A stretch of DNA of 64,000 nt from Enterococcus pallens ATCC BAA-351 (lineage in GTDB: Bacteria; Bacillota; Bacilli; Lactobacillales; Enterococcaceae). Both the position numbers and the translations under genes were made by a program. This document shows, one piece after another, positions 8,997-29,261 of the stretch. Below the pieces are notes generated by a model. The model worked only from the letters and a program-made list of their open reading frames with translations, ran no database searches and was not told where the DNA came from. The stretch lies in assembly GCF_000407485.1 (NCBI RefSeq), contig NZ_ASWD01000003.1, positions 62,001 to 126,000 on the forward strand. The letters run 5' to 3'. Every line of letters starts with the position of its first letter. The stretch's first letter is position 1.

Positions 8997-9006
8997 CATT
9001 TCACTC

Positions 9007-10401: not shown

Positions 10402-10413
10402 TATTTTTCCCTC

Positions 10414-11226: not shown

Positions 11227-12044
11227 TACAAAACCTCCTCTAAATCATCATCATCTGCCGCTAAGTTTTTTGGCATACCATCACTTTTCTGATAAGACAT
11301 TAAAGCAAAGAAGCCAGCGATTATTGCTAAAGAAACCATATTTACACCAAGAGCAGATACTAATGTAAATCCAAAAACAATTGTTAAAAGATCGCCTAAA
11401 TCCTTTACTAGGTTTTTCACTAAAAGCCCTACTCCAATTGCTGGGAATAAACCACCTAAAACAGTTAATACTCTCATAACGTAGGACTCAGCAGGAAATG
11501 TATTAATAATCCATGCTGCCACATCTTGTCCGTAATACAACACCATAAAAGTAGGAATCAAACGAGATGCAAGTAGCAATAATTGAGGAAAAATCCAATG
11601 ATTTCTTAAAAATACCTTCTCATCTCCATTTTGGATAGCAGTAATCACACGTTCATTGAACCCCGAGTTTAAAATACACACGAGATTATGCAAAATAATA
11701 CCGACAGCTCCCATCGCGGTGGCGATCGAAACGGCAGCCTCAATACTTGAACCATTTCTAACAGCTACAATTCCTAATCCAACCCCAATGAATGCAGCCG
11801 CATTGAGATCGGTAGGCATGGTGCCCCCCGGTGTAACCATTGCAATAAACACAGTCTGGACCGCTGCCCCTACAATAATTCCAGTTTGAATATCACCAAG
11901 AATTACCCCAATTAATAAGCCAGATACCAATGGTCGTCCAACCACATACCAACCACCTATACATCCTAGTAACCAAGGTGACATAAATGATCCTATATAC
12001 GCGAGAATACCTATTAAAAAAGCCTGAAAGATATTTATATCCAT
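11226..12044 (-). CDS. PTS 1 EIIC, mannose family
   Basis: The 272-residue polytopic membrane protein is a mannose/sorbose-type EIIC (GRPLVSGLLIGVILGDIQTG, then VTPGGTMPTDLN). It binds and translocates the sugar with EIID. It ends in an acidic tail (AADDDDLEEVL). Substrate is not deducible, but the GH1 gene in the operon suggests a beta-linked disaccharide or glycoside. Confidence 0.9.
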   Translation of the reverse strand: MDINIFQAFLIGILAYIGSFMSPWLLGCIGGWYVVGRPLVSGLLIGVILGDIQTGIIVGAAVQTVFIAMVTPGGTMPTDLNAAAFIGVGLGIVAVRNGSSIEAAVSIATAMGAVGIILHNLVCILNSGFNERVITAIQNGDEKVFLRNHWIFPQLLLLASRLIPTFMVLYYGQDVAAWIINTFPAESYVMRVLTVLGGLFPAIGVGLLVKNLVKDLGDLLTIVFGFTLVSALGVNMVSLAIIAGFFALMSYQKSDGMPKNLAADDDDLEEVL

Positions 12045-12061
12045 AATTTTACCTACCTTTT

Positions 12062-12565
12062 CTATTTGTTAGCGAAAGCTAAAAGCTCATCTTTTACAGC
12101 AGAAAATTTTACCTTAGTAGCATCTGGAACAATTTGATACTCAATCTCATATCCTTTGTCAAAAATCTTTTGATATGCTTCAACATCAGAAGCTGTTACA
12201 TCACAGTTTTTTCCAACTTGAAAAGCATCTTCTTTGGCACTTTGAGGACCAACGTTAAGAACAGTTACATTTGTTTGCATGTCATGATCGACTAATAGTT
12301 TACACATCGTTTCGGGTTCCTTAGTAATTACAAAATAGTTTTTGGCACTCTTTTCTGCCTCGTGCATTTTTGATAGGAACTGTTCCATAGTCCAAACGAA
12401 TGTCTTTTTGTCCGAAGAAGCCTTCAATGCTTGCTTAATTAACGGATCTTTTGCCGCTTTATCGTTAACTGCAATTAGACCATCGCATTGACGTTCCATC
12501 GCCCATCTTGTTACAACTTGCCCATGAATAATCCTATCATCGCACCTCAAAAAACTAATTGTCAT
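12062..12565 (-). CDS. PTS 1 EIIB, mannose family
   Basis: The start at 12565 (MTISFLRCDDRIIHGQ) follows AAGGGGAT. The 167-residue protein is a mannose-family EIIB with its phosphorylated histidine at H14 in RIIHGQV. It takes phosphate from EIIA and passes it to the incoming sugar. It is the first gene of PTS operon 1. Confidence 0.9.
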   Translation of the reverse strand: MTISFLRCDDRIIHGQVVTRWAMERQCDGLIAVNDKAAKDPLIKQALKASSDKKTFVWTMEQFLSKMHEAEKSAKNYFVITKEPETMCKLLVDHDMQTNVTVLNVGPQSAKEDAFQVGKNCDVTASDVEAYQKIFDKGYEIEYQIVPDATKVKFSAVKDELLAFANK

Positions 12566-12686
12566 AAAAATCCCCTTCCCCATTGCTAGAATTTTTTTCA
12601 GATAGTTGCGCTAAGCTAACTGATGTCTAACACTTTTGTATTGTTTTTTCTATACTAAACTAGTTTTGTATTTTTAATACATTCCT

Positions 12687-13625: not shown

Positions 13626-14786
13626 CTATTCAAATGCTTGTTCAAAAAGATCCATAATTTCTTCTTTATTCCCTTTACGAGGATTACTGAATGCATTTCC
13701 ATCTCTCAAAGCATTTTCCGCCATTAATCCAAAGTCTTCCCGTTTTACTCCCATAACTTTAAGGTTCTTTGGAATACCAACATCGGCAGAAAGACGCTCA
13801 ATTGCTTCGATTGCTTTATCGGCAGCCTCTAAAGTAGAAAGTCCTGTAGTATTCTCTCCAAGATAGTCAGCAATTTTTGCGAACTTCTCAGGATTTGAAA
13901 TCAAGTTGTACCGTTCTACTACAGGTAACAGTATCGAATTGGCTACACCGTGAGCCATATCGTATTGTCCTCCCAATTGATGTGCCATCGCATGGACATA
14001 ACCTAAATCACCATTATTGAAAGCCATACCTGCTAATACCGATGCATAAGCCATTTTTTCTCTTGCAGCGATATCTTGACCATTGGCTACTGCTTGTCTC
14101 AGGTTTTGAGCAATCAACCTCATAGCCTGGATCGCACATCCATCTGTTAATGGCGTTGCGTTAGCTGATACATAGCATTCAACCGCATGAGTCAAAGCAT
14201 CCATTCCAGTAGCTGCTGTAAGTCCTTTGGGAACACTTAACATCAGATATGGATCATTAATTGAAACCAGAGGAACATTTCTCCAACTAACAATTACAAA
14301 TTTCAAATGTGTCTCTTCGTCTGTTAAGACACAATGTTTTGTAATTTCGCTTGCGGTACCAGCGGTAGTATTAACGGCAAAAATCGGAGGGAGCTTTTCT
14401 GTTAGCAGCTCAATTCCGGCATATTTTTTTAAATCTTTGCCGTGGGTAACAGCGATTGCTATACCTTTTCCGCAGTCATGAGAAGATCCGCCACCAACTG
14501 TGATAACTGAATCACAGTTCTCTTTGTTGTAAAGATCTAGTCCAGCAATACAATTAGCGATTTTGGGATTTGGCTCAACTTGATCAAAGATGGCATATTC
14601 AAGCCCTTTATCTTCTAAAGACTTCACTACTTGTGCAACAGGTCCATCCTTTAGTGTTCGTAAGAAAGCATCGGTTACTATCAGTGACTTCTTAGCCTCG
14701 AACATCTCAACTTTATCACCTAAAACATCGACAGAACCTTCACCGAAGTAGTTCAGGCTAGGCATTAAAAAATCTTTTACAGTCAT
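13626..14786 (-). CDS. Iron-containing alcohol dehydrogenase
   Basis: The 386-residue protein belongs to group III iron-dependent alcohol dehydrogenases (1,3-propanediol dehydrogenase / lactaldehyde reductase / methanol dehydrogenase type). It has the NAD-binding GGGSSHD (98-104) and the metal ligands Asp196, His200, His265 and His279. It has its own ribosome-binding site (CGGAGAG) and lies between two terminators, so it is a separate transcription unit next to the PTS 2 operon. Reduction of a short aldehyde released by the neighbouring aldolase is a plausible role (inference). Confidence 0.85.
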   Translation of the reverse strand: MTVKDFLMPSLNYFGEGSVDVLGDKVEMFEAKKSLIVTDAFLRTLKDGPVAQVVKSLEDKGLEYAIFDQVEPNPKIANCIAGLDLYNKENCDSVITVGGGSSHDCGKGIAIAVTHGKDLKKYAGIELLTEKLPPIFAVNTTAGTASEITKHCVLTDEETHLKFVIVSWRNVPLVSINDPYLMLSVPKGLTAATGMDALTHAVECYVSANATPLTDGCAIQAMRLIAQNLRQAVANGQDIAAREKMAYASVLAGMAFNNGDLGYVHAMAHQLGGQYDMAHGVANSILLPVVERYNLISNPEKFAKIADYLGENTTGLSTLEAADKAIEAIERLSADVGIPKNLKVMGVKREDFGLMAENALRDGNAFSNPRKGNKEEIMDLFEQAFE

Positions 14787-14955: not shown

Positions 14956-15795
14956 TTAGCCTTTGAGCTTTTGGGTTTCAAAAACTTCAAAATAGTGAGT
15001 TAAGCAGTCTTTCATTCCCGCATTCGCGGCTTGCTTAACATCCAAATAATTGTCTGGTTTTTGTTGTCGTATATTTTCCATTGCCGCATTAACTAAATCT
15101 GAAAAAATATTAATTTTAGCAATCCCTTCAAGACCACAGCGCTTAAGGTTAGCGTCACCTGAAGAGGAGCCCCCGTGCAGAACAAGTGGTGTAGCTACTG
15201 CTTCAGCAATCTCCTTCAAGCGTTCAAAATTAATTTCTGGTACCCCTTTGTACATTCCATGAGCAGTGCCAATTGATATAGCTAATGAATCTACTTCCGT
15301 TGCCTCAATGAATTTTTTTGCATCTTCAACAGTGGTATATTTTGAATCTGTCTGAGCGTGATTTTCGTAGTTCACCCCTGAACCAACGTGACCGATCTCT
15401 GCTTCCACCACCACCCCTTTAGGATGAGCATAAGCGATAATTTCTTTTGTCTTTTTAACATTTGTTTCAAAATCATCTTGGGAAGCATCAATCATGACGG
15501 AAGAAAAACCTAGGTCAATCGCTCTTTTAATAATGCTAGGCGTCATTCCATGATCCAAATGAAGAACTACTGGAACGGATGCTTGTTCAGCCAAATATTT
15601 ACCATTTAATGCAGCTTCTTCTAAAGATATCAGTTCAATATGAGATTCAGCTAAGGCGATAATAACTGGAACACCCAATTTTTCTGCCGTCTCCACATGA
15701 CACTTCATTGATTCAATATCGATAAAATTTGGTGCTGGAATCGCACAATGCTTGTCTCGTGCTTGTTTAAACAATTCCTTTGATGTTACTAACAT
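14956..15795 (-). CDS. Class II fructose/tagatose-bisphosphate-type aldolase
   Basis: The 279-residue protein is a zinc-dependent class II aldolase of the FbaA/GatY/KbaY/IolJ family. It shows LHLDHG (catalytic Asp81, zinc His82), GTAHG (second zinc His) and LHGGSSSGD (third zinc His and phosphate loop). It is the last gene of the PTS 2 operon, 13 bases after the zinc dehydrogenase. No kinase is encoded in the operon, so the substrate may be a mono-phosphorylated ketose instead of a bisphosphate (inference). A truncated copy of its C-terminus lies in the remnant at 12811-13345. Confidence 0.85.
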   Translation of the reverse strand: MLVTSKELFKQARDKHCAIPAPNFIDIESMKCHVETAEKLGVPVIIALAESHIELISLEEAALNGKYLAEQASVPVVLHLDHGMTPSIIKRAIDLGFSSVMIDASQDDFETNVKKTKEIIAYAHPKGVVVEAEIGHVGSGVNYENHAQTDSKYTTVEDAKKFIEATEVDSLAISIGTAHGMYKGVPEINFERLKEIAEAVATPLVLHGGSSSGDANLKRCGLEGIAKINIFSDLVNAAMENIRQQKPDNYLDVKQAANAGMKDCLTHYFEVFETQKLKG

Positions 15796-15808: not shown

Positions 15809-16867
15809 TTATAATCTAACACTCACACGATATCGACCAGGTTGACTAGCATATTCAAATGCTTCTTGAATATCCTTTAAATCAAAAACCTTTTCAATCA
15901 GTGGTGTAACGTCAATTAACTTATGACTTAAAATGTCCGCTGCTGTATAGAAATTCTCCATATACGCCTCGAAAGCACCGATCAATTTCAATCTTCTGTA
16001 ATGCAGCTCATTGGGGCTCATTGGAATTTCTGGTGCTGGATATCCTGCAGAAAAGAATAAGATTTCTCCATCTAATTGTCGAACTAATTCAAAGGATTGT
16101 TTTGCTGCTTGTTTCGCTCCTACACCAAGGATTACAATGTCAGCCATTTCACCATCGGTCAGTTCACCCAGTTTTTCCTTCACATCTTCTTTCCCTGCAT
16201 CAATTACCTCGAATCCATAGGCTTTCGCTTTTTCGATTTTATTCTCCATTAGTTCGGAAATAATCACGCGAGCACCACTTAACCTTGCTACTAGAGCATT
16301 TAATATCCCCATTGTTCCAGCACCAACAACAAGAACTGTTTTACCAAGTTCAATTGTAATATTTGATTGTGCGCTGACAACTGTAGCCAAAGGCTCAATA
16401 AATGCTGCAAAGGAGGGATCTAAGTCTTTATTCGTTTTTACTAAAAATTCAGTCTTTCTTACTGCATACGTAGCGAATCCGAAAAATCCTTTAATACCTT
16501 CCATCACTTGAATATTTTTACGCTCGGTACAATTATCCGTTCTGCCGATCTTACAGTTCTTACATCTTCCACAGTAGCTATAAGCGAAGCTCACTCGATC
16601 TCCAACTTTAAATTCTTTAACATCCTTACCTACTTGAACAATGGTTCCAGAGCTTTCGTGTCCGCCAGCCATTGGATATCCCTGGTGTTCTCTAAGTCCC
16701 AGCCATTGTCCATAATCAGTGGTACAAATGTTACAAGCATCCTGTTTTATCAAAACCTCTTCATTATCGAGTTCTTCAGGCATGGCCACCTGCTGAACGA
16801 CCGCTTCTCCTTTTTTCAATAAGACTCCATAATCAATAACCTTTGTTTCAGCTTCAATTTTGCACAT
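15809..16867 (-). CDS. Zinc-dependent medium-chain dehydrogenase
   Basis: The 352-residue protein is a zinc MDR enzyme of the sorbitol/galactitol-phosphate/threonine dehydrogenase type. Catalytic zinc residues Cys48, His70 and Glu71 and the structural zinc cysteines 99, 102, 105 and 113 are present; VVGAGTMGILNA (about 178-189) is the NAD-binding loop. It lies between EIID and the aldolase of PTS operon 2 with AAGGAGG before its ATG. By analogy with GatD it would oxidise the phosphorylated polyol or sugar to a ketose phosphate for the aldolase. Confidence 0.85.
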   Translation of the reverse strand: MCKIEAETKVIDYGVLLKKGEAVVQQVAMPEELDNEEVLIKQDACNICTTDYGQWLGLREHQGYPMAGGHESSGTIVQVGKDVKEFKVGDRVSFAYSYCGRCKNCKIGRTDNCTERKNIQVMEGIKGFFGFATYAVRKTEFLVKTNKDLDPSFAAFIEPLATVVSAQSNITIELGKTVLVVGAGTMGILNALVARLSGARVIISELMENKIEKAKAYGFEVIDAGKEDVKEKLGELTDGEMADIVILGVGAKQAAKQSFELVRQLDGEILFFSAGYPAPEIPMSPNELHYRRLKLIGAFEAYMENFYTAADILSHKLIDVTPLIEKVFDLKDIQEAFEYASQPGRYRVSVRL

Positions 16868-16882
16868 CTATACTTATCCTCC

Positions 16883-17698
16883 TTAGAAAATACCAATAAT
16901 AGAACCACCGATAGCTAAAGCTAAAATCAAAAGCATAATAACTGTAAAGTTTTGATTTTTCTTACTTAACCACCAGTAAATTCCAAAAGTTACTGCTAAA
17001 GGTAATAAACCGGGTAAGATGCTATCTAACATTTCTTGTAAAACAAATGTATTGTCAGCCCCTAAGCTAAATTTGATTGGTGTGGTTAGATTTACATAGG
17101 TTGAAGATAGACAGCCCATCATAAATAGTCCCAACGTCCCAGCACCAACGATTAATTCGTTAATCCAACCAGATGATAAAATATTTCGAATAGATTCTTT
17201 GCCAAGCTTATAGCCATAGTCGCATAAGAAGGTACCAATAATAAATTGCAGTAAAGGAAATAGCAGAATTACAAATGCTCCAAGTACACTACCTTGAGCT
17301 GATAACGCTGCAGATAAACCGAAAATAATCGGCTTCAAGGTTGCCCAATCAATTGAATCACCAATTCCAGCCAAGGGACCCATCAATCCTGTTTTCATGC
17401 CGGTAATCGCTTCGTCAGGAATATCCTCACCATTAGCCTTTTGTTCTTCAAGTGCTAAGGTTACCCCATTGATTACTCCGCCCCAAACTGCTTCAGTATT
17501 AAAGAAAACCAAATGGCGTCGCAAGGCGCTTTTCATATCTTCTTTATCAGGATAAAGCTTCTTAAGTACTGGGATGAGTGCGGTACAGTACCCTAAGCTT
17601 TGCAAACGCTCATAAGAAATCGCCACTTCAGAAATTAAAAAATAATACCAATAATGTTTCCGAACATCCTTTTTTGTAAGTGTTTTTCTTTCTTCCAT
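16883..17698 (-). CDS. PTS 2 EIID, mannose family
   Basis: The 271-residue protein carries the EIID signatures RRHLVFFNTEAVWGGVING and GLMGPLAGIGDSIDWAT, plus C-terminal membrane helices. It partners the EIIC encoded 14 bases upstream. It differs clearly from PTS 1 EIID, so the two PTS systems are not recent duplicates. Confidence 0.9.
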   Translation of the reverse strand: MEERKTLTKKDVRKHYWYYFLISEVAISYERLQSLGYCTALIPVLKKLYPDKEDMKSALRRHLVFFNTEAVWGGVINGVTLALEEQKANGEDIPDEAITGMKTGLMGPLAGIGDSIDWATLKPIIFGLSAALSAQGSVLGAFVILLFPLLQFIIGTFLCDYGYKLGKESIRNILSSGWINELIVGAGTLGLFMMGCLSSTYVNLTTPIKFSLGADNTFVLQEMLDSILPGLLPLAVTFGIYWWLSKKNQNFTVIMLLILALAIGGSIIGIF

Positions 17699-17712: not shown

Positions 17713-18453
17713 CTAGGCTTCTTGTGATTGGCGTTTATTTATTGTAATTAGAAGTACTGCACAAATTCCAAATACAGCGGCTCCCATAACTGGTAGACCA
17801 GCATATTGGACTAAAAAGTATCCTATGAAGAACCAGGGAAGTAGTTCTTTTTTTCCAATGACGAAAATAGTAATGGCGAATCCTAAAGCCGGAAGCATGC
17901 CACCTGCAACAGTAAATCCATGTGTCAGCCATTCTGGAATAGCATTCATTACTTTAGTAACGGCGTCTGCCCCATATAGATTTGCTAAAAATGGAATTGG
18001 AAATCTTAGGACAAAGCTCAATAAAAGTGGGTACAAAGTAGCTGCTAAAGTAATTTTTCTAGTGTCTCCTTCTTCTGCATATTTATCTGCCATATGAATA
18101 AAAGTAGCATTCAACGTTTTTCTCAATTGATCAATAAACACACCAACAATTCCAACTGGAACGGCAATTGCAATTGCAATCGAAGGCTCAAGATTGGCTT
18201 GTAAGGCAATTGGGACAGCAATTAAACCTGCCAGCGCGTCATCAGCCGGCATATTGGATCCCGCTGGTACTAAGCCGATGTATAGAACCTCTACTGCTGC
18301 TCCAATAATCATCGCTTGTTTCAAATCACCCATAACAATCCCTATCAACATTGCGGAGAAGATGGGTTGTCGAATAGCATGATTCAATCCGTAACCCCAG
18401 TCAGCTTTTACAATGAAGTACCAAATTCCTGTAAAAATGGCAACACCAGTCAT
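17713..18453 (-). CDS. PTS 2 EIIC, mannose family
   Basis: The 246-residue polytopic protein has mannose-family EIIC features (RQPIFSAMLIGIVMGDLKQA and LVPAGSNMPADD). The start is supported by GAGGGGG before the ATG. It forms the sugar channel with EIID. Confidence 0.9.
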   Translation of the reverse strand: MTGVAIFTGIWYFIVKADWGYGLNHAIRQPIFSAMLIGIVMGDLKQAMIIGAAVEVLYIGLVPAGSNMPADDALAGLIAVPIALQANLEPSIAIAIAVPVGIVGVFIDQLRKTLNATFIHMADKYAEEGDTRKITLAATLYPLLLSFVLRFPIPFLANLYGADAVTKVMNAIPEWLTHGFTVAGGMLPALGFAITIFVIGKKELLPWFFIGYFLVQYAGLPVMGAAVFGICAVLLITINKRQSQEA

Positions 18454-18473: not shown

Positions 18474-18959
18474 TTAAAATTTATTTCCTACCTTTTCAAT
18501 TGAAACTGGTGAATCCTCTGGAATCATTTGTATATACACTTTTGTTCCAGCAGCTGCCATATCAGAAAGGTCTTGATACTCTTCCTTCGTTAAAGCAATT
18601 CCTTTACTGATATTGACCTTTCCAGCCCCACTTCCAGTTCCGCCAATTTGTAATTCCTTTAATTTGACACCGTTATCAAAAAGTTGTTTAGCTGTTTCAA
18701 TTGATTTAAGCAGTACTAAAATAGAACTATATTCGAAGTTATTTTCTAAGCATTTTTTTGAAAAATCGTCGACGGTACAGATTTCAACGGAAACGCCCGG
18801 CGGTGCAGCCATTACATAAATGTCAGCCATAAATGGATCTTTAGATAATTGATCGTCGACAATCATAATTTGTTTTGCTTGGGCTTTTTTGTTCCACTTT
18901 GTAATTACCTGTCCGTGAATAAGACGAAAATCAATTCTTACTAATTTTAGACTATCCAT
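18474..18959 (-). CDS. PTS 2 EIIB, mannose family
   Basis: The 161-residue protein is a mannose-family EIIB with the phosphorylated histidine at H15 (RLIHGQVITKW). AAGGAGAAA precedes the start, within the end of the EIIA gene. It transfers phosphate to the transported sugar. Confidence 0.9.
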   Translation of the reverse strand: MDSLKLVRIDFRLIHGQVITKWNKKAQAKQIMIVDDQLSKDPFMADIYVMAAPPGVSVEICTVDDFSKKCLENNFEYSSILVLLKSIETAKQLFDNGVKLKELQIGGTGSGAGKVNISKGIALTKEEYQDLSDMAAAGTKVYIQMIPEDSPVSIEKVGNKF

Positions 18960-18961
18960 AA

Positions 18962-19372
18962 CTATTTCTCCTTATTTTCAAATTCTTGAACAACATCTCG
19001 AACACCTGACTTAGCAGCATCCATACATTTTTCGACGGCATAGCTATGATCTTTTTGAAGGCGCGACATTTCAAATTCGATTAACATTGGTAAACTTACA
19101 CCTGAAATCAGTTGAAAATTTCTTTCCTTTGAAAGTTTGAGTGCTACATTAGATGGCGTACCACCAAATAAATCAACGAAGATCACTGATTTTTCCGGTG
19201 CATCTTTCACCTCTTCTGCAATCGAGGCATATAATTCTTCTGGTGACATCGAATGTTCTAAGGCAAACCCATAAGCATTCTTAATTTCACCAAGAATCAT
19301 CTTTGCACTGTTCAAAAGTTCTTTTCCAAAAAATCCATGTGTCACAACAATAATCCAAGGTTCCTTTTCCAT
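18962..19372 (-). CDS. PTS 2 EIIA, mannose family
   Basis: The 136-residue protein is a mannose-family EIIA, with phosphorylated H12 in VTHGFFGKEL and the conserved DLFGGTPSNVA. It is the first gene of the operon EIIA-EIIB-EIIC-EIID-dehydrogenase-aldolase and starts about 20 bases after the predicted transcription start of the sigma-54 promoter. Confidence 0.9.
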   Translation of the reverse strand: MEKEPWIIVVTHGFFGKELLNSAKMILGEIKNAYGFALEHSMSPEELYASIAEEVKDAPEKSVIFVDLFGGTPSNVALKLSKERNFQLISGVSLPMLIEFEMSRLQKDHSYAVEKCMDAAKSGVRDVVQEFENKEK

Positions 19373-19403: not shown

Positions 19404-19421
19404 AAGCAAGTGCCGTGCCAA
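19404..19421 (-). promoter_or_regulatory. rpoN-dependent: Sigma-54 promoter of PTS operon 2
   Basis: The minus strand reads TTGGCACGGCACTTGCTT, an essentially exact match to the -24/-12 consensus TGGCAC-N5-TTGCW. It sits about 30 bases upstream of the EIIA start and next to the gene for a LevR-type activator with a GAFTGA loop, which makes the call strong. Confidence 0.9.
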
Positions 19422-19622: not shown

Positions 19623-22334
19623 CTATAGATTTTCTAAGATCATCTCAACTATATAAGCAATTTCACTTTCAGGAATCTCAATGGAATAATAGTCTTCCAT
19701 ATGTTTTACACTTGATTTAATTAATTGAAACTGTTTTGGAAATTTCTCTTTTAATTCTGATAATGATTCGTTCTCGAGAATTTCGTTCTTTTGTACTCTT
19801 TCCACCAAAAACGAAGTGTGAAGAATATATCTGACATAGAAATTCGCATTTTTATCTAGGAATGGATATTCGTCAACAGTAATTTTGTACGCTTTTCTCA
19901 AATTGTCCAGCACAATTTCGGCATCAATAACTTCTAATGATTCTTTCAACAGGCTGACAAGAGAATTTACGGGACTTCTTTCACTTTTCTCTGCTAAATT
20001 AATGTTTAGAACATTGAAAATGATAGTTTCTAATCGGTTAAAGCCATTGCCGAACATCATATCATTCATTGAAATAAAAGGAATATTCGGAGCCTTAATG
20101 TCCACCGTACCAATCGTCGCTATCACTCGTTCCATTTCGTGGAACATAAAAGGTTCCCCTAATGGAACGATTTCAAGCTGGTTGATAAGCTCATTTTGAA
20201 AATAGTTTTCTTTTAGATAGTCAGAAATCTTTTGCGCCGTCCCTGTTCCTGAAGAACAAGAGACAATTATTACAGGCTTGGCTTTCTCACTGCTTCTGTC
20301 AATTCCTTTATTCAATGACAAGGAATTTCGGCTTATATAATTTGAGTATGAGGCCAGATAGCTCTCCAGTTTTTCGAGAGTGATCCCAATTAAGGAGCAT
20401 TTCATTCCTGCTTCAAGTGCTAGAGCAGTAGTCACACGATCAATTGATACAATATTGATTTGAAGTTCCTCAGCCAACATTGCTGAAAAGTTAACTAATG
20501 ACCCCATATCTACTAGTAATAATGCACCCTTCTCAGTATTAACTTCCTTAAGCAATTCTTTTGTTTTGTCATACATCTCAGATGAAGGCATGCTTAGCGG
20601 CATATCAATTCCATAACAACACTTGATACCCAGCAATTCGTTCACAAAGGATGCAATACTTGTAGCTGTTGAATTTCCGTGAGCAATAATAATCAAAGGA
20701 ATTCTTTGACTTACTTTTTCTTCGTCAATTGTATTTTGAATAATTTCAATGATCGGCAGCAGCTCTTGATCTGGAACTTTTAAGAAAAACTCTTGTTCAA
20801 AGCAAACCCTTATCATCTTGGCGATTGAAATCTCTAATCCATCTAAGTCTTCTAGCACATTCTCTTGAAATTCCACTGCAAAATGATCACTTCTAAGTCT
20901 TTCATACAAAAACTGTAAATAAATAGACAAATTATTCTGCAGCTGTTGCGTTGATTTAAATCCTCTTTTTTCATTAAAATAGTTCAGAGCGAACTGGACG
21001 TTATTGTATATGCCACGATCGACGAATTTAAGTAATTCTGATTTATGGAGCATCCTTTTTTCAGCGTTTGTTCCCATAATCGTTCGTATGTATTCATCGA
21101 ATTCAAAGGTTTTCATCTTTTTAGCTTCTTCATCTAAATCCTCTACGGCCATATTTTTGTCATCCAAGTAGTCAAAAATTATATAGTTATTCATCTTCGA
21201 AAAGAGAGGAATATTGTGTGAATTAAGTATCTCTTTTTGAATACTGTCAGGTAGATACTCTTCTCTTATCGATATTTTACCGGAATTATTTTGATGACCT
21301 TCTAAATAGGCTCTGGCACAGATCATCTTTATATCACTTTTGAGTTGTCCAATGTTTCCTGACGGATTATAAAAAATTAATCCTTTTAAGCACTCGTGAG
21401 TAATCGAAATGGAGCTCTTCAAGTTTTTACTTTCCATTTTTAAAAAGTAATCAACGATATCTAGTTTTTCTGAAATGTCCTTTTGGCCTAGACTGGGTAG
21501 AGAGATGGTGACAGGAATTCTTCTGAGCAGCGTTTTTAGCATAACTTCTTCTAAATTCTCCGTCGTAGCACAAATAATTAATACCTGTGATTTTTCAAAA
21601 TCATTGGAGGATCCGAGTTTTCTATACTGCCCCTTATCTATTAATTGGAACAACATTTCTTGGGATTGAAAAGACAACCTATGAACCTCGTCTAAAAATA
21701 GAACACCATTATTTGCCCGACTGACAAGACCTTCCTTTTCTTTATTCGCTCCAGTAAAAGCGCCTTCAACATGTCCAAATAAATGAGAAAAAAGTAAATC
21801 TCCATTGTCCGCATATTCGGAACAATTAAATGAAATGAATTGACCATTGCAATCGATCGTTCCACTTTGTTTTGCATACTCAAACATTTTTTGCGCGAAC
21901 GTAGTTTTCCCTACGCCACTAGGTCCTTGCAAAATAGTATGCAGTCCGTTTGGAGGATATATCATCGCAGATTTTGCCTTTTTGATTGCTCTTCGCAAGC
22001 TTTGCTTATGTCCAATGAGCTCTTTGAAAGGGTCACTATTTTCTAAAAAGTCAGCAAGGGAAGATACTAAGAGTTGATCTTTTGATAGCGGCTTTCTTAA
22101 AAGCCCTTCCATTTGTCTTCTTGAAAAAAACCTTACAGGCTTTTGTTTTACCTTAATTAGGACGCCCTCTTTATGCAGTTGATTACAGTCCCTGTTGACG
22201 TTATTAAAATCCAATGTTAGCTCAGCACCAATTTCTTTTGTAGTAACGCCTTGTGTAGTGTTGAGATCACTGGTGTGGATCACTTTGGATGAGTACTCTT
22301 CAATATAATTCTCAATTTTTTCTTTTCTCTTCAT
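19623..22334 (-). CDS. LevR/ManR-type sigma-54-dependent PTS activator
   Basis: The start at 22334 (MKRKEKIENYI) follows GGAGG. The 903-residue protein has an N-terminal winged helix (about 1-75), an AAA+ domain with Walker A GPSGVGKT (137-144), the sigma-54 contact loop GAFTGA (191-196) and Walker B LFLDEV, then PRD1, a mannose-type EIIA domain (AHGNSTATS), an EIIB-Gat-like domain (SCSSGTGTAQ) and PRD2 at the C-terminus. PTS phosphorylation of these domains sets its activity in the family. It is encoded directly upstream of PTS operon 2 and its sigma-54 promoter. Confidence 0.92.
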   Translation of the reverse strand: MKRKEKIENYIEEYSSKVIHTSDLNTTQGVTTKEIGAELTLDFNNVNRDCNQLHKEGVLIKVKQKPVRFFSRRQMEGLLRKPLSKDQLLVSSLADFLENSDPFKELIGHKQSLRRAIKKAKSAMIYPPNGLHTILQGPSGVGKTTFAQKMFEYAKQSGTIDCNGQFISFNCSEYADNGDLLFSHLFGHVEGAFTGANKEKEGLVSRANNGVLFLDEVHRLSFQSQEMLFQLIDKGQYRKLGSSNDFEKSQVLIICATTENLEEVMLKTLLRRIPVTISLPSLGQKDISEKLDIVDYFLKMESKNLKSSISITHECLKGLIFYNPSGNIGQLKSDIKMICARAYLEGHQNNSGKISIREEYLPDSIQKEILNSHNIPLFSKMNNYIIFDYLDDKNMAVEDLDEEAKKMKTFEFDEYIRTIMGTNAEKRMLHKSELLKFVDRGIYNNVQFALNYFNEKRGFKSTQQLQNNLSIYLQFLYERLRSDHFAVEFQENVLEDLDGLEISIAKMIRVCFEQEFFLKVPDQELLPIIEIIQNTIDEEKVSQRIPLIIIAHGNSTATSIASFVNELLGIKCCYGIDMPLSMPSSEMYDKTKELLKEVNTEKGALLLVDMGSLVNFSAMLAEELQINIVSIDRVTTALALEAGMKCSLIGITLEKLESYLASYSNYISRNSLSLNKGIDRSSEKAKPVIIVSCSSGTGTAQKISDYLKENYFQNELINQLEIVPLGEPFMFHEMERVIATIGTVDIKAPNIPFISMNDMMFGNGFNRLETIIFNVLNINLAEKSERSPVNSLVSLLKESLEVIDAEIVLDNLRKAYKITVDEYPFLDKNANFYVRYILHTSFLVERVQKNEILENESLSELKEKFPKQFQLIKSSVKHMEDYYSIEIPESEIAYIVEMILENL

Positions 22335-22385
22335 TTCGGTTCCTCCACGTTTTGAAGACTCTATTTTCACTACATAATTTCATTC

Positions 22386-22456: not shown

Positions 22457-23416
22457 TTAAGCTTTTAACGCATTATCAATGATTTCTAAAACTGCTTTGC
22501 TTTGCTGAAGCATTACATCTCTGTAGGAAAAATCTTTGTACTCAACCATTTTTACAAATTCTGTAAACTCCTGATACATCCTATGAGAAGAAGAATTTTC
22601 AGCAAATTTTTTTCGTTTTTCTCCCTTTTTTTCAATCGCAATGCTTGGAAGTGTGTTCGTAGGACCTTTTATGAATATAGTCCCTTCCTCTCCTTGGATC
22701 GTTGATATATTATTACCAAAAGAATCTTTTGCTGCCACACAGACAACATGAAAGCTTGAATAGTCTAAAATTAGTATTCCCGAGGTATCGATATCCAGCT
22801 TCATATTTCCAAAATATTTTACATCTACTGGTTTCCCAAATAAACCTACCGCAAGATGGATATTGTACACATTCAGGTCTCTTAATGCACCTCCACCTTT
22901 TTGGAAATCAAATGCAGGTAAAACTATTCCATCTCTAAACTGATCATACCGTGAAGAATACTGAGAATAATTGAATTCAACGACTCTGATTTCACCAATC
23001 TTGGATAAATAGTTTTTAATGAGCTTGTAATTTTCTAAATACTGATTTGTAATTGCTTCTACCAGAATCAACTTTGACTGATCAGCCAGATTGGATAAAA
23101 TAGTTAACTCTTCAGAGTGAAGAGCGAACGGCTTCTCGCAGATTACATTTTTCCTGTTTATTAAAGCATTTAGTGCTTGTTCATAATGTAAGTGATTAGG
23201 TGTCGCAATATAAACCGTATCAAATATCCCTTGCTTTAAACAAAGGTTATAATCAGAAAATACTTCGTCAACTCCGTACTTCTTTTGTAAAGCTACTCCT
23301 TTTTCATAACTTCTTTCTGTTGTGCATAAGGCTGTCACTTCAATTTCAGGGATGTATTGCTGAACCTTTAAAAATTCTTCTGCAATCATCCCCGTCCCGA
23401 TAATTGCTATTTTCAT
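22457..23416 (-). CDS. Gfo/Idh/MocA-family oxidoreductase
   Basis: The start at 23416 (MKIAIIGTGMIAEEF) follows AAGGAG. The 319-residue protein has the NAD(P)-binding GTGMIA at the N-terminus, the family lysine in CEKPFAL (about 98), and a C-terminal alpha/beta domain with a GGGALRDLNVYNIH segment whose Asp and His lie where the catalytic pair is found. Members oxidise or reduce sugars, polyols or inositols. It lies between the transketolase operon and the LevR gene; a role in the PTS 2 sugar pathway is inferred. Confidence 0.85.
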   Translation of the reverse strand: MKIAIIGTGMIAEEFLKVQQYIPEIEVTALCTTERSYEKGVALQKKYGVDEVFSDYNLCLKQGIFDTVYIATPNHLHYEQALNALINRKNVICEKPFALHSEELTILSNLADQSKLILVEAITNQYLENYKLIKNYLSKIGEIRVVEFNYSQYSSRYDQFRDGIVLPAFDFQKGGGALRDLNVYNIHLAVGLFGKPVDVKYFGNMKLDIDTSGILILDYSSFHVVCVAAKDSFGNNISTIQGEEGTIFIKGPTNTLPSIAIEKKGEKRKKFAENSSSHRMYQEFTEFVKMVEYKDFSYRDVMLQQSKAVLEIIDNALKA

Positions 23417-23472
23417 AAACTTCTCCTTGTCATCGTCCACCTAAGCTATTTCGAATTTTTAACTAAGTAAAG

Positions 23473-23524: not shown

Positions 23525-25522
23525 TTAGTTCAATGAATCAAATGTATTCACTACGTTATCGATAGTGAAACCAAGCCGTTCTAAAACCAGACCTCCTGGA
23601 GCAGAGAATCCAAAGTGATCAATACTGATCATTTTACCAGTGTCTCCCAGGTATCGCTCCCAACCAAATGAAGTACCAGCTTCAACAGCTAATCGTTTAG
23701 TTACTGCTTTTGGTAAGACGGATTCTTTGTATTCATCATCCTGCGCCTCGAAAAGATCAAAACTAGGTAATGATACTACAGAAACATCTTTTCCTCTCTT
23801 TTTCAAAACTGTTTGTGCTGCAATTGCTAAACTAACTTCAGAACCAGTGGCAATAATGATGCCTTCTGGTATAGCCGATTGAGCTTTTGACACGATATAC
23901 CCACCTTTTTCTACACCAATTCCGGCATTTTCTTGTGTGTCTGGTAAAACAGGTAGATTTTGTCTGCTCAACACTAACAAAGTTGGTTTGTTTTTTGTCT
24001 TTAGTGCTACCTTCCAAGCCGCGGTGGTTTCATTACCGTCAGCTGGCCGGATTACTTGGACATTAGGCATACAGCGTATACTTGCTAATTGCTCGACTGG
24101 TTCATGGGTTGGACCATCTTCTCCAACTGCAACTGAATCATGAGTCAAAACATAGATCACAGGCAATCCTTGTAAAGCTGACATACGAATAGCGGGTCTT
24201 AAATAATCAACGAATACAAAAAATGTACCGCCATAAACTCGAGTTCCACCATGTAACTGAATACCATTCATTGCTCCAGCCATTGCGAATTCACGAACTC
24301 CAAACCAAATATTGCGTCCTTCATAAGAAGCAGGTTGAAATTCCTTTTCCGCTACAACTGTTGTGTTATTCGATCCTGACAAATCTGCTGATCCGCCCCA
24401 AAAACTTGGTACAGCTTTAGAAATTTCTTGGATGATATCTTTACTTGACACACGGCTAGCTTGACTGGAGCCTTCTGGATAAACTGGTAAATCAACATCC
24501 CATTTTTCTGGAAGTTTCCCATCAAAAGCTTCTTCAAATTGCTTAGCCAGCTCTGGATAAACAGTTTTATACTCTTCAAAAAGTTGATTCCATTCTCCTT
24601 CAGCCGCTCCACCTTTATCAATCATTTCTGCTTTAAAACGTTCAGCTACTTCATCTGGAACAGTAAAGTCAGGATACTCCCAATTATAAACCTGTTTAGC
24701 TGCTCTGATTCCTTCATCACCGATTGGGGCACCATGAACGGCAGAAGTTCCTTCTTTTGGAGCACCATAGCCAATTACTGTTTTTATCTCAATCAAAGTC
24801 GGTTTTTCTGTCTCAGCTTTCGCCTCATCAATCGCACTGTTGATTGCTTCTAAATCATTGCCGTCTTCTACCAGAATATGCTGCCAACCATAGGCTTCAT
24901 AACGAGCGCCCACGTTTTCTGTAAAGGCTTTAGATGTTGGTCCATCTAAAGAAATATCATTAGAATCATACAATACAATCAATTTGTTTAATTTCAAATG
25001 CCCTGCCATTGAACTAGCTTCCTGAGATATGCCTTCCATCAGATCGCCATCTCCACAGATAGTGTACGTGTAATGATCCATTATATTATACTTTCCTCGA
25101 TTATAAACCGCCGATAAATGAGCTTCTGCCATAGCCATGCCTACAGCCATAGCAATTCCTTGTCCTAATGGTCCAGAAGTTGCTTCTACACCATCTGTCT
25201 GTCCATATTCAGGATGTCCAGGTGTTTTACTTTCCCATTGTCGGAAGTTTTTCAAATCGTCAATCGTTACTTTGTAACCCGATAAATGTAATAAACTGTA
25301 TAACAGAGCAGAGCCATGTCCTGCCGAAAGAATAAAGCGGTCTCGATTCGGCCAGTTCAACGAGGTTTTGGGATTCACACTTAGATGCTTCGTCCATAGC
25401 GTGTAAGCCATTGGAGCTGCCCCCATAACAATACCTGGATGGCCTGAATTGGCTTGTTGAATTGCGTCAATCCCTAGTGTGCGTATAGTGTTAACACTTA
25501 ACTGATCAATGTTATCAAACAT
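23525..25522 (-). CDS. tkt: Transketolase
   Basis: The 665-residue protein is a full-length thiamine-diphosphate transketolase: [27 protein letters not shown] (ThDP/metal motif), [12 protein letters not shown] in the pyrimidine domain and [19 protein letters not shown], with [11 protein letters not shown] at the C-terminus. It transfers C2 units between ketose and aldose phosphates. It is the last gene of the RpiR-controlled operon. A second transketolase, about 80% alike over the visible C-terminus, lies at the right edge, so this one is likely the pathway-specific copy. Confidence 0.95.
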
Positions 25523-25558
25523 TCATTTCTTCCTCCTAAGATTTCAAATAACTACCAT

Positions 25559-25798
25559 TTACTCTTGACTAATCGTAGGAAAGAGGCTGTGACGTAAAAC
25601 ATCACAGCCTCTTTCATAACGAATAATCGGTGTGACTAAAGCAACTCTTTCGGAAATAAGCCGAATAATCACAAGATTATAAAAAGCTCTAGGTAGGTAC
25701 TGTTCGACATCAACTTCAAGATCCGCTGTGTCTCTCAGCAATTTTCGGATGATCCCGGTTATTTTTTGGAGCTGAACGCTGTTGTCCCAGCTGCTTTC
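25559..25798 (-). repeat. Intergenic repeat-like element with a strong hairpin
   Basis: The 276-base gap between the TIM-like and transketolase genes holds no credible gene. On the minus strand it begins CAGCTGGGACAACAGCG and ends in a perfect 13-bp hairpin AAAGAGGCTGTGA / TCACAGCCTCTTT (25580-25592, 25602-25614). The layout, a GCTGGGACAA start and a GAGGCTG hairpin, resembles dispersed intergenic elements I recall from enterococcal genomes, but I cannot confirm copy number here. A 60-codon frame across it lacks gene-like features. It may modulate expression of the distal tkt. Confidence 0.45.
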
Positions 25799-26626
25799 CT
25801 ACTTATCTAATTCAGCCTTCAAATTTTTAATCACATCTACAATTTGTTGTAACCGATTTGAATCACTGCCGAACCTGCCTAATAATACACCATCTAAGTC
25901 AGCCATTTTAATCATAGTGATACTATTCTCCGGACTAACAGATCCGCCATATACAACACGAACCTTTTCATTTGCCTCTTCTCCAAAAATTCTGGTCAGA
26001 GCTTTTCGAATAAATGATGTTGCCATTTTAATATGTGGTGCTCCAGCTGCTTTACTTTGGCCCACCGCCCATGCAGGAGTATAAGCAATAACAATCTTAT
26101 CTAAATCTTGTTTATCTACACTATACAAACCATTGAAAACACGTAAGAATAATTCTTGTTCGAGTTCTTGTTCATAATTTGGATTTTTCAAGTCGTCGAT
26201 AACGTTATCTGCATCCTTCTTTTCAAGTTCACCAACACATAGAATGGGACTTACATTATTATTAAGAGCTAATTTTACTTTTTTGTTGATAATGTCATCT
26301 GTTTCATTAAAGAGCTTTCTTCTTTCCCAATGTCCCAGTTCAACAAAAGTTCCTTCCATATCTATTAATGATTCAATTGAAAACTCACCACTTAACTCAC
26401 CATGCTCAATTGATCCAATATTTTGGGCACCCAAATGAACTGGCGTATCTTTAATCACCTCATGTACTGGATAAATTGTTCCCATTGAAGGTAAAATGAC
26501 AACGTCAATTCCAGCATCTGAGTTTCTGCGATCACTAATCTGTTTAGCAAATTCAATTGCATCTTTCATATGATTTTGTCTCATGGACCAATTCATTATG
26601 ATAATTGGTTTTTTTTGGTTATTCAT
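25799..26626 (-). CDS. Triosephosphate isomerase-like protein lacking catalytic residues
   Basis: The start at 26626 (MNNQKKPIIIMNWSM) is nine bases after GGAG. The 275-residue protein is a TIM-family barrel (AQNIG, ELGHWERR, SPILCVGE, YGGSVSPENS), but key positions differ. The catalytic lysine of NWKM is Ser14 (NWSM), and the general-base glutamate of AYEPVWAIG is Thr183 (AYTPAWAVG). His99 is kept, while the following Ser is Trp100. The C-terminal phosphate loop GG is GR. The normal isomerase chemistry should be lost. It lies in an operon with DeoC-like, TalC-like and transketolase genes. Its function is unknown. Confidence 0.85.
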   Translation of the reverse strand: MNNQKKPIIIMNWSMRQNHMKDAIEFAKQISDRRNSDAGIDVVILPSMGTIYPVHEVIKDTPVHLGAQNIGSIEHGELSGEFSIESLIDMEGTFVELGHWERRKLFNETDDIINKKVKLALNNNVSPILCVGELEKKDADNVIDDLKNPNYEQELEQELFLRVFNGLYSVDKQDLDKIVIAYTPAWAVGQSKAAGAPHIKMATSFIRKALTRIFGEEANEKVRVVYGGSVSPENSITMIKMADLDGVLLGRFGSDSNRLQQIVDVIKNLKAELDK

Positions 26627-26699
26627 TATAATCATCTCCGTAGTTTTTCTCATTACGATGACCTAAGAAAAGCAATTTAACAAACAGAATCTAGCATTT

Positions 26700-27347
26700 T
26701 TATTTCTTTGAAAATGCCGACCAGTCTTTCTCAAATTGTTCGATCCCTTTATCCGTTAATGGATGACTCCATAACTTAGGAAATAAGCTGCCAGGAATCG
26801 TCGCAATATCCGCACCTAGTACAGCTACTTTTTCAACGTGCTCAAGTCCTCGAACACTGGCAGAAATGATTTCTGCTTCGTACCCGTAGTTATCTAATAC
26901 TTTTCTTAGTTTCAAAATTAACGCCATACTGTCCGTTCCAATATCATCTAAACGTCCCAAAAATGGACTAATGTAGGTAGCCCCAGCTTTCGCGGCCATT
27001 AAGCCTTGAGCAACGGTAAATACCAATGTAACGTTTGTCTTGATTCCTTTTTTAGATAGATGATTCACTGCTTTTAGCCCTTGTTCAGTCATTGGAATTT
27101 TTACGACTACATTATTCGCCCAATTTGCTAAGGTTTCCGCTTCTGAGATCATTTCTTCGGCTTGAGAACCCGTAACTTCTGCACTCACTGGTCCGTCAAC
27201 TATTGAACAAATTTCTTTGATTACTTCTTCAAAATCTCTGCCTTCTTTAGCAATGATGGTTGGATTTGTCGTAACGCCATCAACCAATCCTAGTTCATTA
27301 ATCCGTTTGATTTCTTCTACATTGGCCGTATCTAAAAAGAATTTCAT
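26700..27347 (-). CDS. Transaldolase / fructose-6-phosphate aldolase (TalC type)
   Basis: The 215-residue protein is the short TalC/Fsa form: [27 protein letters not shown], the Schiff-base lysine in VVKIPMT (about 84-90), and the barrel end with [15 protein letters not shown]. It may transfer a dihydroxyacetone unit (transaldolase) or cleave fructose 6-phosphate directly. It is the second gene of the RpiR-controlled operon. Sequence does not separate the two activities safely. Confidence 0.9.
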
Positions 27348-27369: not shown

Positions 27370-28092
27370 TTAATATGCGTCAGTACTTACACTGTTATCT
27401 AAGCCTAAAACCGTTGGTGTTGATTTGTATCCTACACCCATGCGGTCAATTCCCATATCGATCAATTCTAAGAAGTGGTCACGAGTACGGATGCCTCCGC
27501 TGCCCTTAATTTTGATGCGTCCTTTGCATTGGTCCATCATGATCTTGATTACTTCATTTGTGGCGCCATTCGATTCGTATCCAGTAATAAAACCAGTACT
27601 TGTTTTTACGAAATCTGCTCCTGCAGTAATCGCACATTCACAGGCTTGACGAACCTGTTCTTCATTCAACGTATCTGTTTCAAAAATAACTTTCACGGCT
27701 GTTCCATACTTATGGCATACATCCACAACCGCTTTAATATCAGCAGTCACATCGTCATATTTTCCACTTCTGATCCAGCCAAAATTAGCCACAATATCCA
27801 ATTCATAAATGTCGCCGCGTTTACAATACTCTTCAGCTTGCATTGCTTTTGAAGCAGTTGTACTTGTCCCGAAAGGAAAATCACAAACTACACAAATCTT
27901 TGTCTTAGTATCTTTCGTCATCTCGGCTGCGATATCTAATGATGAAGGATTGATACATACTGTTGCACAATGGTAATCAATCCCTTCTTGAATATACTTA
28001 CGAATTTCTGCCTCTGTAAAATCTGGTTTCAATACTGATTGATCAATATACATTCCTAATTCTTCTACTGTCATTTCTGCTGCCTTTTTCAT
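27370..28092 (-). CDS. Deoxyribose-phosphate aldolase (DeoC)-like aldolase
   Basis: The start at 28092 (MKKAAEMTVEEL) follows AGGAGG by nine bases. The 240-residue class I aldolase keeps the DERA residues: YELDIVANFG (catalytic Asp), FVKTSTGF (Schiff-base Lys) and IKGSGGIRT (second Lys). The usual IDHTLL motif reads IDQSVL, so the His-Thr that shapes the entrance is altered. No deoxynucleoside genes are nearby; it leads an operon with TalC, TIM-like and transketolase genes. It may therefore act on a sugar other than deoxyribose 5-phosphate (inference). Confidence 0.85.
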   Translation of the reverse strand: MKKAAEMTVEELGMYIDQSVLKPDFTEAEIRKYIQEGIDYHCATVCINPSSLDIAAEMTKDTKTKICVVCDFPFGTSTTASKAMQAEEYCKRGDIYELDIVANFGWIRSGKYDDVTADIKAVVDVCHKYGTAVKVIFETDTLNEEQVRQACECAITAGADFVKTSTGFITGYESNGATNEVIKIMMDQCKGRIKIKGSGGIRTRDHFLELIDMGIDRMGVGYKSTPTVLGLDNSVSTDAY

Positions 28093-28370: not shown

Positions 28371-28391
28371 TAAAAAGGCTTGGTTAAATCT

Positions 28392-29261
28392 ATGAATGAC
28401 AATCAATTATACTCAGAAACGATTAAATTAAACTATCATTCTCTCAGTAAGTCTGAAAAGAAAATAGCAGATTATGTTTTAGAAACAGGATATAAAGTAT
28501 CTGAAATGGCTTTAGCTGAACTGGCCAAAGCGACTGGGGTCAGTGATCCTTCGGTAGTCCGCTTTACTAAAGCTTTGGGGTACAAAGGCTTTAGTGATTT
28601 CAAATCTCGCGTTTTACGAGACTGGGGAAAAGAAAGTTCTCTCCCTCAATCTGACAAGTTTGTTGATCTGAATATTTCACCAGAGGATAAGCTGGAAAGT
28701 ATCCCTCAAAAAATTGTCAGCTCCTCTATGAAGGGCTTAGAAGATACCATGAAAATTTTTGACTATAAAGCGTACGAAAAAGCTGTTCATCGTATTTCTA
28801 AAGCCAAGCGAATTGAGGTTTTTGGGGTAGGAACCTCTGGCAGTATTGCTTTAGACTTTGTCAGCCGCTTGATTCGTATTGGGTTGAATGCTCGTTATTT
28901 CGCGGACAACCATTTAGAACAGTTAAGCCTTGTCTCTTTAGGAAAAGAAGATGTTGCAATCGCAATTTCTCATTCCGGCAGCACAATTGATGCGGTGAAC
29001 AGTTTAAAAATTGCCAAGGAAGCTGGTGCAACAACGATTGCCTTAACAAACTACAAAGCCTCGCATATCTCTAAGTATTCAGATATCGATTTATTAACTG
29101 GCGATCATGAAACGACCTTCTACAGTGAAACGATGGTTTCTAGAATGTCCCTGCTTTCTCTAGTAGATATGCTGTATATGGGTATTCTGTTAAGTGACTA
29201 TGAAAAATATACAACTATATTAGACAAAGTGAATACCTTGGTGGAAAAGAAAAACTACTAA
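28392..29261 (+). CDS. RpiR-family phosphosugar-sensing regulator
   Basis: The start at 28392 (MNDNQLYSETIKLNYHSLSK) is chosen by family alignment; the ribosome-binding site is weak. The 289-residue protein has the RpiR helix-turn-helix (about 1-80, ATGVSDPSVVRFTKALGYKG) and a SIS phosphosugar-binding domain (about 120-255, GVGTSGSIALDF and SHSGSTIDA). It is divergent from the DeoC-TalC-TIM-Tkt operon and probably represses it and itself until a phosphosugar binds. Confidence 0.88.
   Translation: MNDNQLYSETIKLNYHSLSKSEKKIADYVLETGYKVSEMALAELAKATGVSDPSVVRFTKALGYKGFSDFKSRVLRDWGKESSLPQSDKFVDLNISPEDKLESIPQKIVSSSMKGLEDTMKIFDYKAYEKAVHRISKAKRIEVFGVGTSGSIALDFVSRLIRIGLNARYFADNHLEQLSLVSLGKEDVAIAISHSGSTIDAVNSLKIAKEAGATTIALTNYKASHISKYSDIDLLTGDHETTFYSETMVSRMSLLSLVDMLYMGILLSDYEKYTTILDKVNTLVEKKNY

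Follow-up and report, generated by a model that had tools for sequence, protein, structure and literature searches.

A triosephosphate isomerase relative of Enterococcus pallens and its Lactobacillales clade with both catalytic residues replaced

Triosephosphate isomerase (TIM) serves in textbooks as the near-perfect enzyme, with a catalytic lysine and glutamate that are treated as indispensable; TIM lacking Lys12 or Glu165 is less active by several orders of magnitude, Ser96 contacts the catalytic glutamate, and the serine of loop 7 and the glycine of loop 6 help to bind phosphate. TIM-like genes also occur together with those for DhaKLM, RpiB, TalC, transketolase, and a GolD-type SDR, a set regarded here as the golD operon of Listeria; judging by their operon content, the genomes of family f7, genus g23, are likewise taken here as Listeria-type. 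DhaQ, whose NCBIfam model name was met among the profile matches, is a catalytically dead paralogue. According to excerpts of the respective papers, lmo0347 and lmo0348 of Listeria are DHA kinases (PMC4217532), the isomerisation of tetrulose phosphates is an established role of one TIM relative, LerI (PMC10733421), and a sourdough study of Limosilactobacillus fermentum finds only 33%-identical matches to the Brucella enzyme, annotated as TIM (PMC12542623). Catalytically dead paralogues that activate are documented in excerpts of PMC3663545 and PMC6221367, and the trypanosomatid prozyme and the DHS partner share the feature of a paralogue devoid of catalytic residues that is kept beside an active relative. 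Within the open-licence PMC full text, judged by titles and the beginnings of abstracts, no literature was found on the variant described here.

This variant is encoded in a 64,000-nucleotide stretch of Enterococcus pallens (the window, by which the whole analysed stretch is meant; positions 62001-126000 of contig 3 in a 5.44-Mb genome). A first, sequence-only reading of this DNA had noticed a TIM relative without the catalytic lysine and glutamate, an observation that is confirmed and proves broader than first reported.

The E. pallens operon and its TIM-like gene

The TIM-like gene belongs to a long series of minus-strand genes headed by a divergent regulator, with the features listed below in minus-strand order from deoC to the iron-dependent dehydrogenase (window coordinates; where two bit scores are given, the second is the cut-off).

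28380..29261, plus strand: divergent RpiR-type regulator, HTH_6 and SIS domains (profile matches)
27370..28092, minus strand: DeoC, deoxyribose-phosphate aldolase (TIGR00126, 194.9 versus 117.3 bits, 194.6 in a second scan; the open frame reaches 28218)
26700..27347, minus strand: TalC/FSA, fructose-6-phosphate aldolase family (TIGR00875, 300.3 versus 245.95 bits)
26636..26639, minus strand: GGAG, Shine-Dalgarno-like, 9 nt 5' of the ATG at 26626 (read from the sequence)
25799..26626, minus strand: TIM-family protein with Ser14 and Thr183 for Lys and Glu, His99 kept, Trp100, and a GRFGS loop 8 (profile match, alignment, column counts)
25580..25614, minus strand: terminator-like hairpin AAAGAGGCTGTGA..TCACAGCCTCTTT at the junction of the TIM-like and transketolase genes (read from the sequence; the terminator scan did not list it)
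23525..25522, minus strand: transketolase (TIGR00232, 923.3 versus 682.25 bits)
22457..23440, minus strand: Gfo/Idh/MocA oxidoreductase (profile match)
19623..22370, minus strand: sigma-54-dependent PRD regulator (Pfam; the best NCBIfam match, DagR, at 546.3 versus 1400 bits, is far under its cut-off)
19405..19420, minus strand: sigma-54 -24/-12 site TGGCAC-N5-TTGCT, an exact match upstream of PTS IIA (the sole site without mismatch in the window)
18962..19372, minus strand: PTS IIA, mannose family (profile matches)
18474..18959, minus strand: PTS IIB, mannose/sorbose family (profile matches)
17713..18453, minus strand: PTS IIC (profile matches)
16883..17698, minus strand: PTS IID (profile match under the curated cut-off)
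15809..16867, minus strand: Zn-dependent alcohol/polyol dehydrogenase family (under cut-offs)
14956..15795, minus strand: class II ketose-bisphosphate aldolase family (TIGR00167, 228.3 versus 215.6 bits)
13626..14786, minus strand: iron-dependent alcohol dehydrogenase, lactaldehyde reductase-like (under cut-offs)

The gene context of DeoC-like, TalC-like, and transketolase genes under an RpiR regulator, as described by the sequence-only reading, is present in full, with the RpiR gene divergent; the hairpin, however, splits off the transketolase gene. In the closest relative (L007), the same junction is occupied by another hairpin, which has a T run, and because a hairpin lies ahead of the transketolase gene in both loci, the tight unit is deoC, talC, and the TIM-like gene. 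The 276-bp gap that follows the TIM-like gene (25523-25798) contains an imperfect repeat that is also found 3' of the TIM-like gene of the same subgroup (tier 3, see below) in locus L009 (88% over 94 bp) and resembles the intergenic repeat elements of enterococci; the corresponding gap in L007 is 79 bp long, and the match is limited to its last 44 bp. In the window as a whole, sigma-54 matches with up to two mismatches occur at chance level (33 found, 30.4 expected), as do cre sites in a pattern scan (2 found versus a mean of 1.45), the promoter scan is near chance (58 versus a mean of 47.7), and Rfam at the gathering threshold yields RNase P as the sole match, namely a bacterial class B RNase P RNA at 45529-45896. 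Downstream of the operon, the region 8571-12583 holds a second mannose-family PTS and a GH1 glycosidase gene.

The TIM-like gene itself is open over 275 codons on the minus strand, with no internal stop, so that its first-reported position and intact frame are borne out. An in-frame ATG upstream, at 26653, would give a protein of 284 aa; the ATG at 26626 is favoured because of the GGAG found 9 nt ahead, at 26639-26636. Residues 7-264 match the Pfam TIM family PF00121 (E 7e-55, 186.6 bits versus a cut-off of 20.1), and the protein scores under the curated equivalog cut-off of TIGR00419 (104.2 versus 130.6 bits). Alignment with solved TIMs places Ser14 at the catalytic lysine (NWKM of TIM reads NWSM), Thr183 at the catalytic glutamate (AYEPxW reads AYTPAW), and His99 at the retained catalytic histidine, exactly as had been read from the letters. 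The accompanying statement that the remaining barrel is preserved stands for His99 and does not stand for two other sites: TIM Ser96, which adjoins the catalytic histidine, is Trp100 (in 14 of the 14 proteins of this type found), and loop 8 reads GRFGS versus GGAS in TIM, with Arg in place of Gly233. By TIM numbering, both changes presumably fall in the region of the active site and the phosphate site. Altogether, the protein shares with TIM the fold, the PF00121 match, His95, Glu97, and the YGG of loop 7, and differs from it by the absence of Lys12 and Glu165, by Trp at Ser96, and by Arg at Gly233.

An AlphaFold model built from four sequences (pLDDT 78, pTM 0.84; pLDDT below 50 at residues 189-192) adopts the TIM fold and matches TIM structures in Foldseek (E 1e-21) and 1b9b in VIA (Z 31.2, rmsd 2.2 over 249 residues). 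The Brucella L-erythrulose-1-phosphate isomerase (EryH/LerI, 11ef and 11eg), compared by structure only, is also matched through its TIM fold (E 2e-18), at ranks 29 and 39 and below many true TIMs. Judging by alignment and TIM numbering, from which all pocket assignments derive, Trp100 probably fills the pocket that the glutamate occupies in TIM.

Six PF00121 matches are found in the E. pallens genome: one canonical TIM encoded between pgk and eno, three proteins of the Ser/Thr type that share the motifs NWSM, GHWERR, and AYTPAW, and two distant members. The two further Ser/Thr-type copies (contig 3, 180 kb and 334 kb) are 75% and 61% identical to the window protein, and the three copies belong to three different PTS operons. 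Proteins with Trp at the Ser96 position and Thr at the glutamate position (Trp/Thr proteins) are not the TIM of the cell: a canonical TIM (GHSER, AYEPIW) separate from the Trp/Thr gene is present in the E. pallens genome and in eight of the nine other carrier genomes, and all nine have another TIM-family match, which in eight is a full canonical TIM. The ninth, G292 (82% complete), has a third TIM-family match that is partial only.

Distribution, phylogeny, and selection of the Trp/Thr clade

Relatives were searched in 105 genomes of the family, 395 of the order, 398 of the class, and 398 of the phylum, the last three sets being drawn samples of larger groups and some genomes being shared between searches, as well as in 29 genomes of family f8. 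The Trp/Thr type is found as 14 distinct proteins in 10 Lactobacillales genomes, 8 of the 105 in the family of the window and 2 of the 29 in f8; homologues of the kind that the sequence-only reading had proposed to look for do exist, with Ser or Ala for the lysine and Thr for the glutamate, in operons of related gene content. The class and phylum searches give matches in 13 and 59 other genomes, respectively, each among 398, whose E values (1e-60 to 1.5e-66) fall some 50 orders of magnitude short of the 1e-118 with which the lowest-scoring clade member was found in the order. Outside the order, no Trp/Thr motifs occur in the matches read, those of 13 of the 13 class genomes and 29 of the 59 phylum genomes, all of which are canonical TIMs; the scope of these searches is such that remoter families devoid of Lys and Glu would escape detection. 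Seven of the 29 phylum matches are PGK-TIM fusions, which were left out of the tree and the column counts. Peptide patterns taken from the subgroup of the window, which fit that subgroup and are blind to tier-2 members (see below), hit three loci among 84,980 species genomes, all in Enterococcus sp. 665A, whose relative is 95% identical to the window protein. Among 72,556 plasmid records, one reaches E 1e-40 or better: the 919-kb E. gilvus plasmid pCR1A, on which a golD-type operon (L131, NZ_CP030933.1 375143-393904) contains a TIM-family gene, EGCR1_RS15835, annotated 'triose-phosphate isomerase family protein' and assigned to the golD type by its operon and its 41% identity.

In a tree of 62 proteins, the 14 Trp/Thr proteins form one clade (support 97/90), whose sister consists of 32 proteins that keep Lys and Glu and have the GRF loop (94/92; the inner order of this clade is unsure, several branches being long), and the 16 canonical TIMs lie outside. 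Two tiers of seven proteins each are distinguished within the Trp/Thr clade: tier 2 has Ala at the lysine position, and tier 3, to which the window protein belongs, has Ser together with a 12-residue insert; tier 3 is the only supported clade of the two (100/100). Three of the four sister-clade proteins scanned likewise score under the TIGR00419 cut-off. Within the Lactobacillales genomes sampled, the Trp/Thr clade appears to have a single origin.

The column counts separate what is lost, kept, and gained. Lys and Glu are present in 32 of 32 sister-clade proteins and in 36 of 36 canonical TIMs examined; in the Trp/Thr clade, the lysine position holds Ser in seven and Ala in seven of the 14 proteins, and Thr183 is found in 14/14. 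Trp100 is equally invariant (14/14), versus Ser in 36/36 canonical TIMs. His99, Glu101, Tyr226, Gly227, Gly228, and Gly250 are invariant across all three groups. Fixed residues specific to the clade are Met11, Gln17, Val188, Pro197, Ser254, and Arg258 (each 14/14) and Arg16 (13/14). Glu96, Arg251, and Phe252 are common to the Trp/Thr and sister clades (Glu96 and Arg251 in 32/32 of the latter), and do not compensate for the lost residues, because the sister that shares them has Lys and Glu. Restoration of the two residues at nearby positions, which the sequence-only reading had named as evidence that would count against it, is not seen in the column tables: of the residues specific to the clade, Arg16 alone is both charged and no more than three positions away from Ser14 or Thr183, and none is acidic. 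Three positions that are fixed in the sister (32/32) and canonical (36/36) groups vary in the clade, namely the loop 7 serine Ser229 (S10, T3, A1), the loop 6 glycine Gly189 (G12, N1, S1), and the dimer-loop threonine at 79 (S10, T3, N1); the variation of the loop 7 and loop 6 residues implies that phosphate binding may be weakened.

The clade is under strong purifying selection, with a dN/dS of 0.062 between the window and L007 genes (50 synonymous and 15 non-synonymous differences) and of 0.110 between L002 and L009, the two of eight measured pairs in which dS is trustworthy, the rest being saturated or nearly so. The residue changes appear coordinated, with Trp always in place of Ser96 and the new residues fixed, and on the whole the pattern points to remodelling under selection and not to decay. 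Gene decay, or an error of sequencing or reading, to which the missing catalytic residues might lead one, is refuted by the open frame, by the dN/dS of 0.06, by the same replacements in 14 proteins of 10 genomes, and by the three copies in the E. pallens genome, and retains a negligible weight. Judging by these comparisons, the Trp/Thr proteins are a new TIM-family variant, maintained by selection, in which both catalytic residues are replaced.

Gene neighbourhoods of the relatives

In tier 3, a class I aldolase gene lies upstream of the TIM-like gene in 7/7 loci, of the KDPG-like type in five (L008, L009, L109, L110, L111) and DeoC in two (the window and L007), TalC is encoded between the aldolase and the TIM-like gene in five of the seven, and mannose- or fructose-type PTS genes are near in all seven. 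The KDPG-like aldolases of the five loci belong to a diverged family; they retain the Schiff-base lysine and the glutamate, and their PTGG motif reads ATAG. In L008 and L110, the interval from the PRD regulator to the TIM-like gene holds PTS genes and the aldolase gene only, with the aldolase and TIM-like genes of L008 443 bp apart. Past the regulator, the same strand encodes aldo/keto reductases and a SnoaL-like protein in L008, and a MerR regulator, a histidine phosphatase, two flavodoxins, and an SDR in L110; these genes look unrelated to the TIM-like gene.

In tier 2, DhaK-DhaL genes are near in six of seven loci. A paralogue that keeps Lys and Glu is encoded in the same stretch in 6/7 tier-2 loci and in 0/7 tier-3 loci, and in four of those six the two are neighbours or have a single gene between them. 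In the seventh tier-2 genome, G013 (78% complete, with the gene 3.2 kb from a contig start), a sister-clade gene was not found. The tier-2 operon of genome G277 (L104, 7299-15719) contains genes for a D-threonate kinase-like protein (under cut-off) and a PdxA-family dehydrogenase together with the TIM-like pair, a content that may point to C4 chemistry. The same region also holds a 2-keto-3-deoxygluconate transporter-like gene and genes for TalC, RpiB, and transketolase. The tier-2 loci L102, L103, and L105 encode GalM, XylB, a fructose PTS, a D-lyxose-isomerase-like cupin, DhaK, DhaL, and the TIM-like protein, and L117 (genome G001), whose operon resembles these but lacks the Trp/Thr gene, provides a natural comparison; a class II aldolase is encoded in three of these four loci, of which L105 begins inside the operon. 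Gene names in the four loci derive from one representative each and cluster membership.

The suggestion of the sequence-only reading that the protein modulates the real TIM finds no specific support, since the normal TIM is a separate gene and the nearby paralogue of tier 2 is the Lys/Glu-keeping sister-clade protein, not the glycolytic enzyme. Similarly, the parallel that it drew with a Listeria carbohydrate operon, from which a conserved pathway had seemed plausible, is not supported for this variant. Specifically, the Listeria-type genomes carry sister-clade proteins (GHAER, AYEPEW) with Lys and Glu present, and the matching golD-type locus L112 likewise encodes a TIM-like protein with both residues. 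The Listeria-type proteins share with the window protein the GRF loop 8, Glu96, and the operon partners, whereas the sister clade has Lys, Glu, Tyr16 (32/32), and His254 (31/32) where the Trp/Thr clade has Arg16 and Ser254 instead; the window protein, with Ser14, Thr183, Arg16, and GRFGS instead of GRFGH, lacks the sister-clade features, and the tree separates the two. Nine golD-like loci (L106-L108, L112-L116, L118) encode, beside DhaM, DhaK, and DhaL, two small proteins that belong to a single cluster and may be a polyol or ketose transporter; both members of the L108 pair, the one pair scanned, match DUF6905.

Candidate functions of the Trp/Thr proteins

Activity of the Trp/Thr proteins as triosephosphate isomerases is very unlikely, because TIM needs both the lysine and the glutamate and no clade-specific acid replaces the latter; the claim that known TIM chemistry should not run is thus supported by the replacement of both residues. 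Of the earlier interpretation, the loss of TIM chemistry, the operon context, and a phosphosugar role, which fits, have stood, and neither the Listeria parallel nor the modulation of the cell's TIM finds specific support.

The leading reading, held tentatively and with less than even confidence, is that of a repurposed phosphosugar enzyme. The Trp/Thr proteins form a distinct TIM-barrel subfamily beside the Lys/Glu-keeping sister of the DhaK-DhaL-RpiB-TalC operons. They keep His99 (His95), Glu101 (Glu97), the loop 7 YGG, and the initial glycine of loop 8, have new residues fixed in what was the TIM pocket region (Trp100, Arg16, Gln17, Thr183, Ser254), and would have lost the proton-transfer chemistry of TIM. 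Such a protein may bind a phosphorylated short sugar that the class I aldolase and TalC make or use after PTS uptake, and may convert it by a step other than the DHAP-GAP isomerisation, with His99 and Glu101 as the likeliest catalytic pair; as a guess, the substrate would be a C3-C5 phosphosugar, perhaps the phosphate of a tetrulose or of a triose in the L configuration. This reading fits because the His/Glu pair is kept, the new residues are fixed, and the aldolase and the TIM-like gene alone follow the PTS genes in the short operons of L008 and L110, which therefore leave little for a pure accessory to assist. Counted against it are the loss of both proton-transfer residues, which together with a Trp that probably occupies the glutamate pocket also suits a non-catalytic binding protein, the Lys/Glu-keeping paralogue that shares the locus with six of the seven tier-2 members, which suits a subunit role, and the 443-bp gap between aldolase and gene in L008. 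The variation at the loop 6, loop 7, and dimer-loop positions further lowers its probability and raises that of a non-catalytic partner or sensor.

A partner or sensor of this kind, to which an only slightly smaller weight is given, would bind a phosphosugar and activate, stabilise, or regulate another enzyme, either the Lys/Glu-keeping paralogue in tier 2 or the aldolase or TalC in tier 3. The loss of catalytic residues under purifying selection, as found in the Trp/Thr clade, suits a pseudoenzyme subunit; both residues are gone in 14/14 proteins with three further positions relaxed, the paralogue is adjacent or near-adjacent in four of the six tier-2 stretches that hold it, and the excerpted reports on activating dead paralogues cited above offer precedents. 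Two of the 10 Trp/Thr genomes, however, those of the window (G000) and G020, are near-complete and contain no Lys/Glu-keeping GRF-type paralogue, so that such a partner is not general, and a heterodimer with the sister protein is out as a general answer. Moreover, the strict fixation of the His/Glu pair and of several new residues near the old site, with no drift, and the sparse content of the L008 and L110 operons speak against a purely non-catalytic role. An improbable third reading is that the protein has remained an isomerase, for triose or tetrulose phosphates, whose catalytic roles have moved to Arg16, Glu96, Glu101, and Arg251. Arg16 lies two residues past the lost lysine, the invariant Glu96 three residues ahead of the histidine, and Arg251 in loop 8; yet the intact sister has Glu96 and Arg251 fixed as well, so that neither is a replacement, the column table offers no clade-specific acidic residue, the serine that contacts the glutamate in TIM is replaced by Trp, and, as stated above, TIM deprived of either catalytic residue is severely impaired. 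The remaining weight falls to other outcomes.

Within the preferred reading of a repurposed enzyme, a more specific and rather doubtful version is that a new phosphosugar reaction, such as one that epimerises or isomerises a tetrulose phosphate or a triose phosphate of L configuration, runs on the TIM barrel through the His95-Glu97 pair, and that the gene forms with the aldolase, and often TalC, a module placed on three different sugar PTS systems in one genome, which would amount to an undescribed catabolic route. For the large enterococcal genomes, the finding points to PTS-aldolase sugar pathways. It also carries a warning for annotation: if Trp/Thr genes are named in the manner of the E. 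gilvus gene, metabolic models would miscount them as TIM. For the family, a clade under selection and of apparently single origin without both catalytic residues, with an intact sister, is a natural experiment in the dismantling and re-use of a perfect active site.
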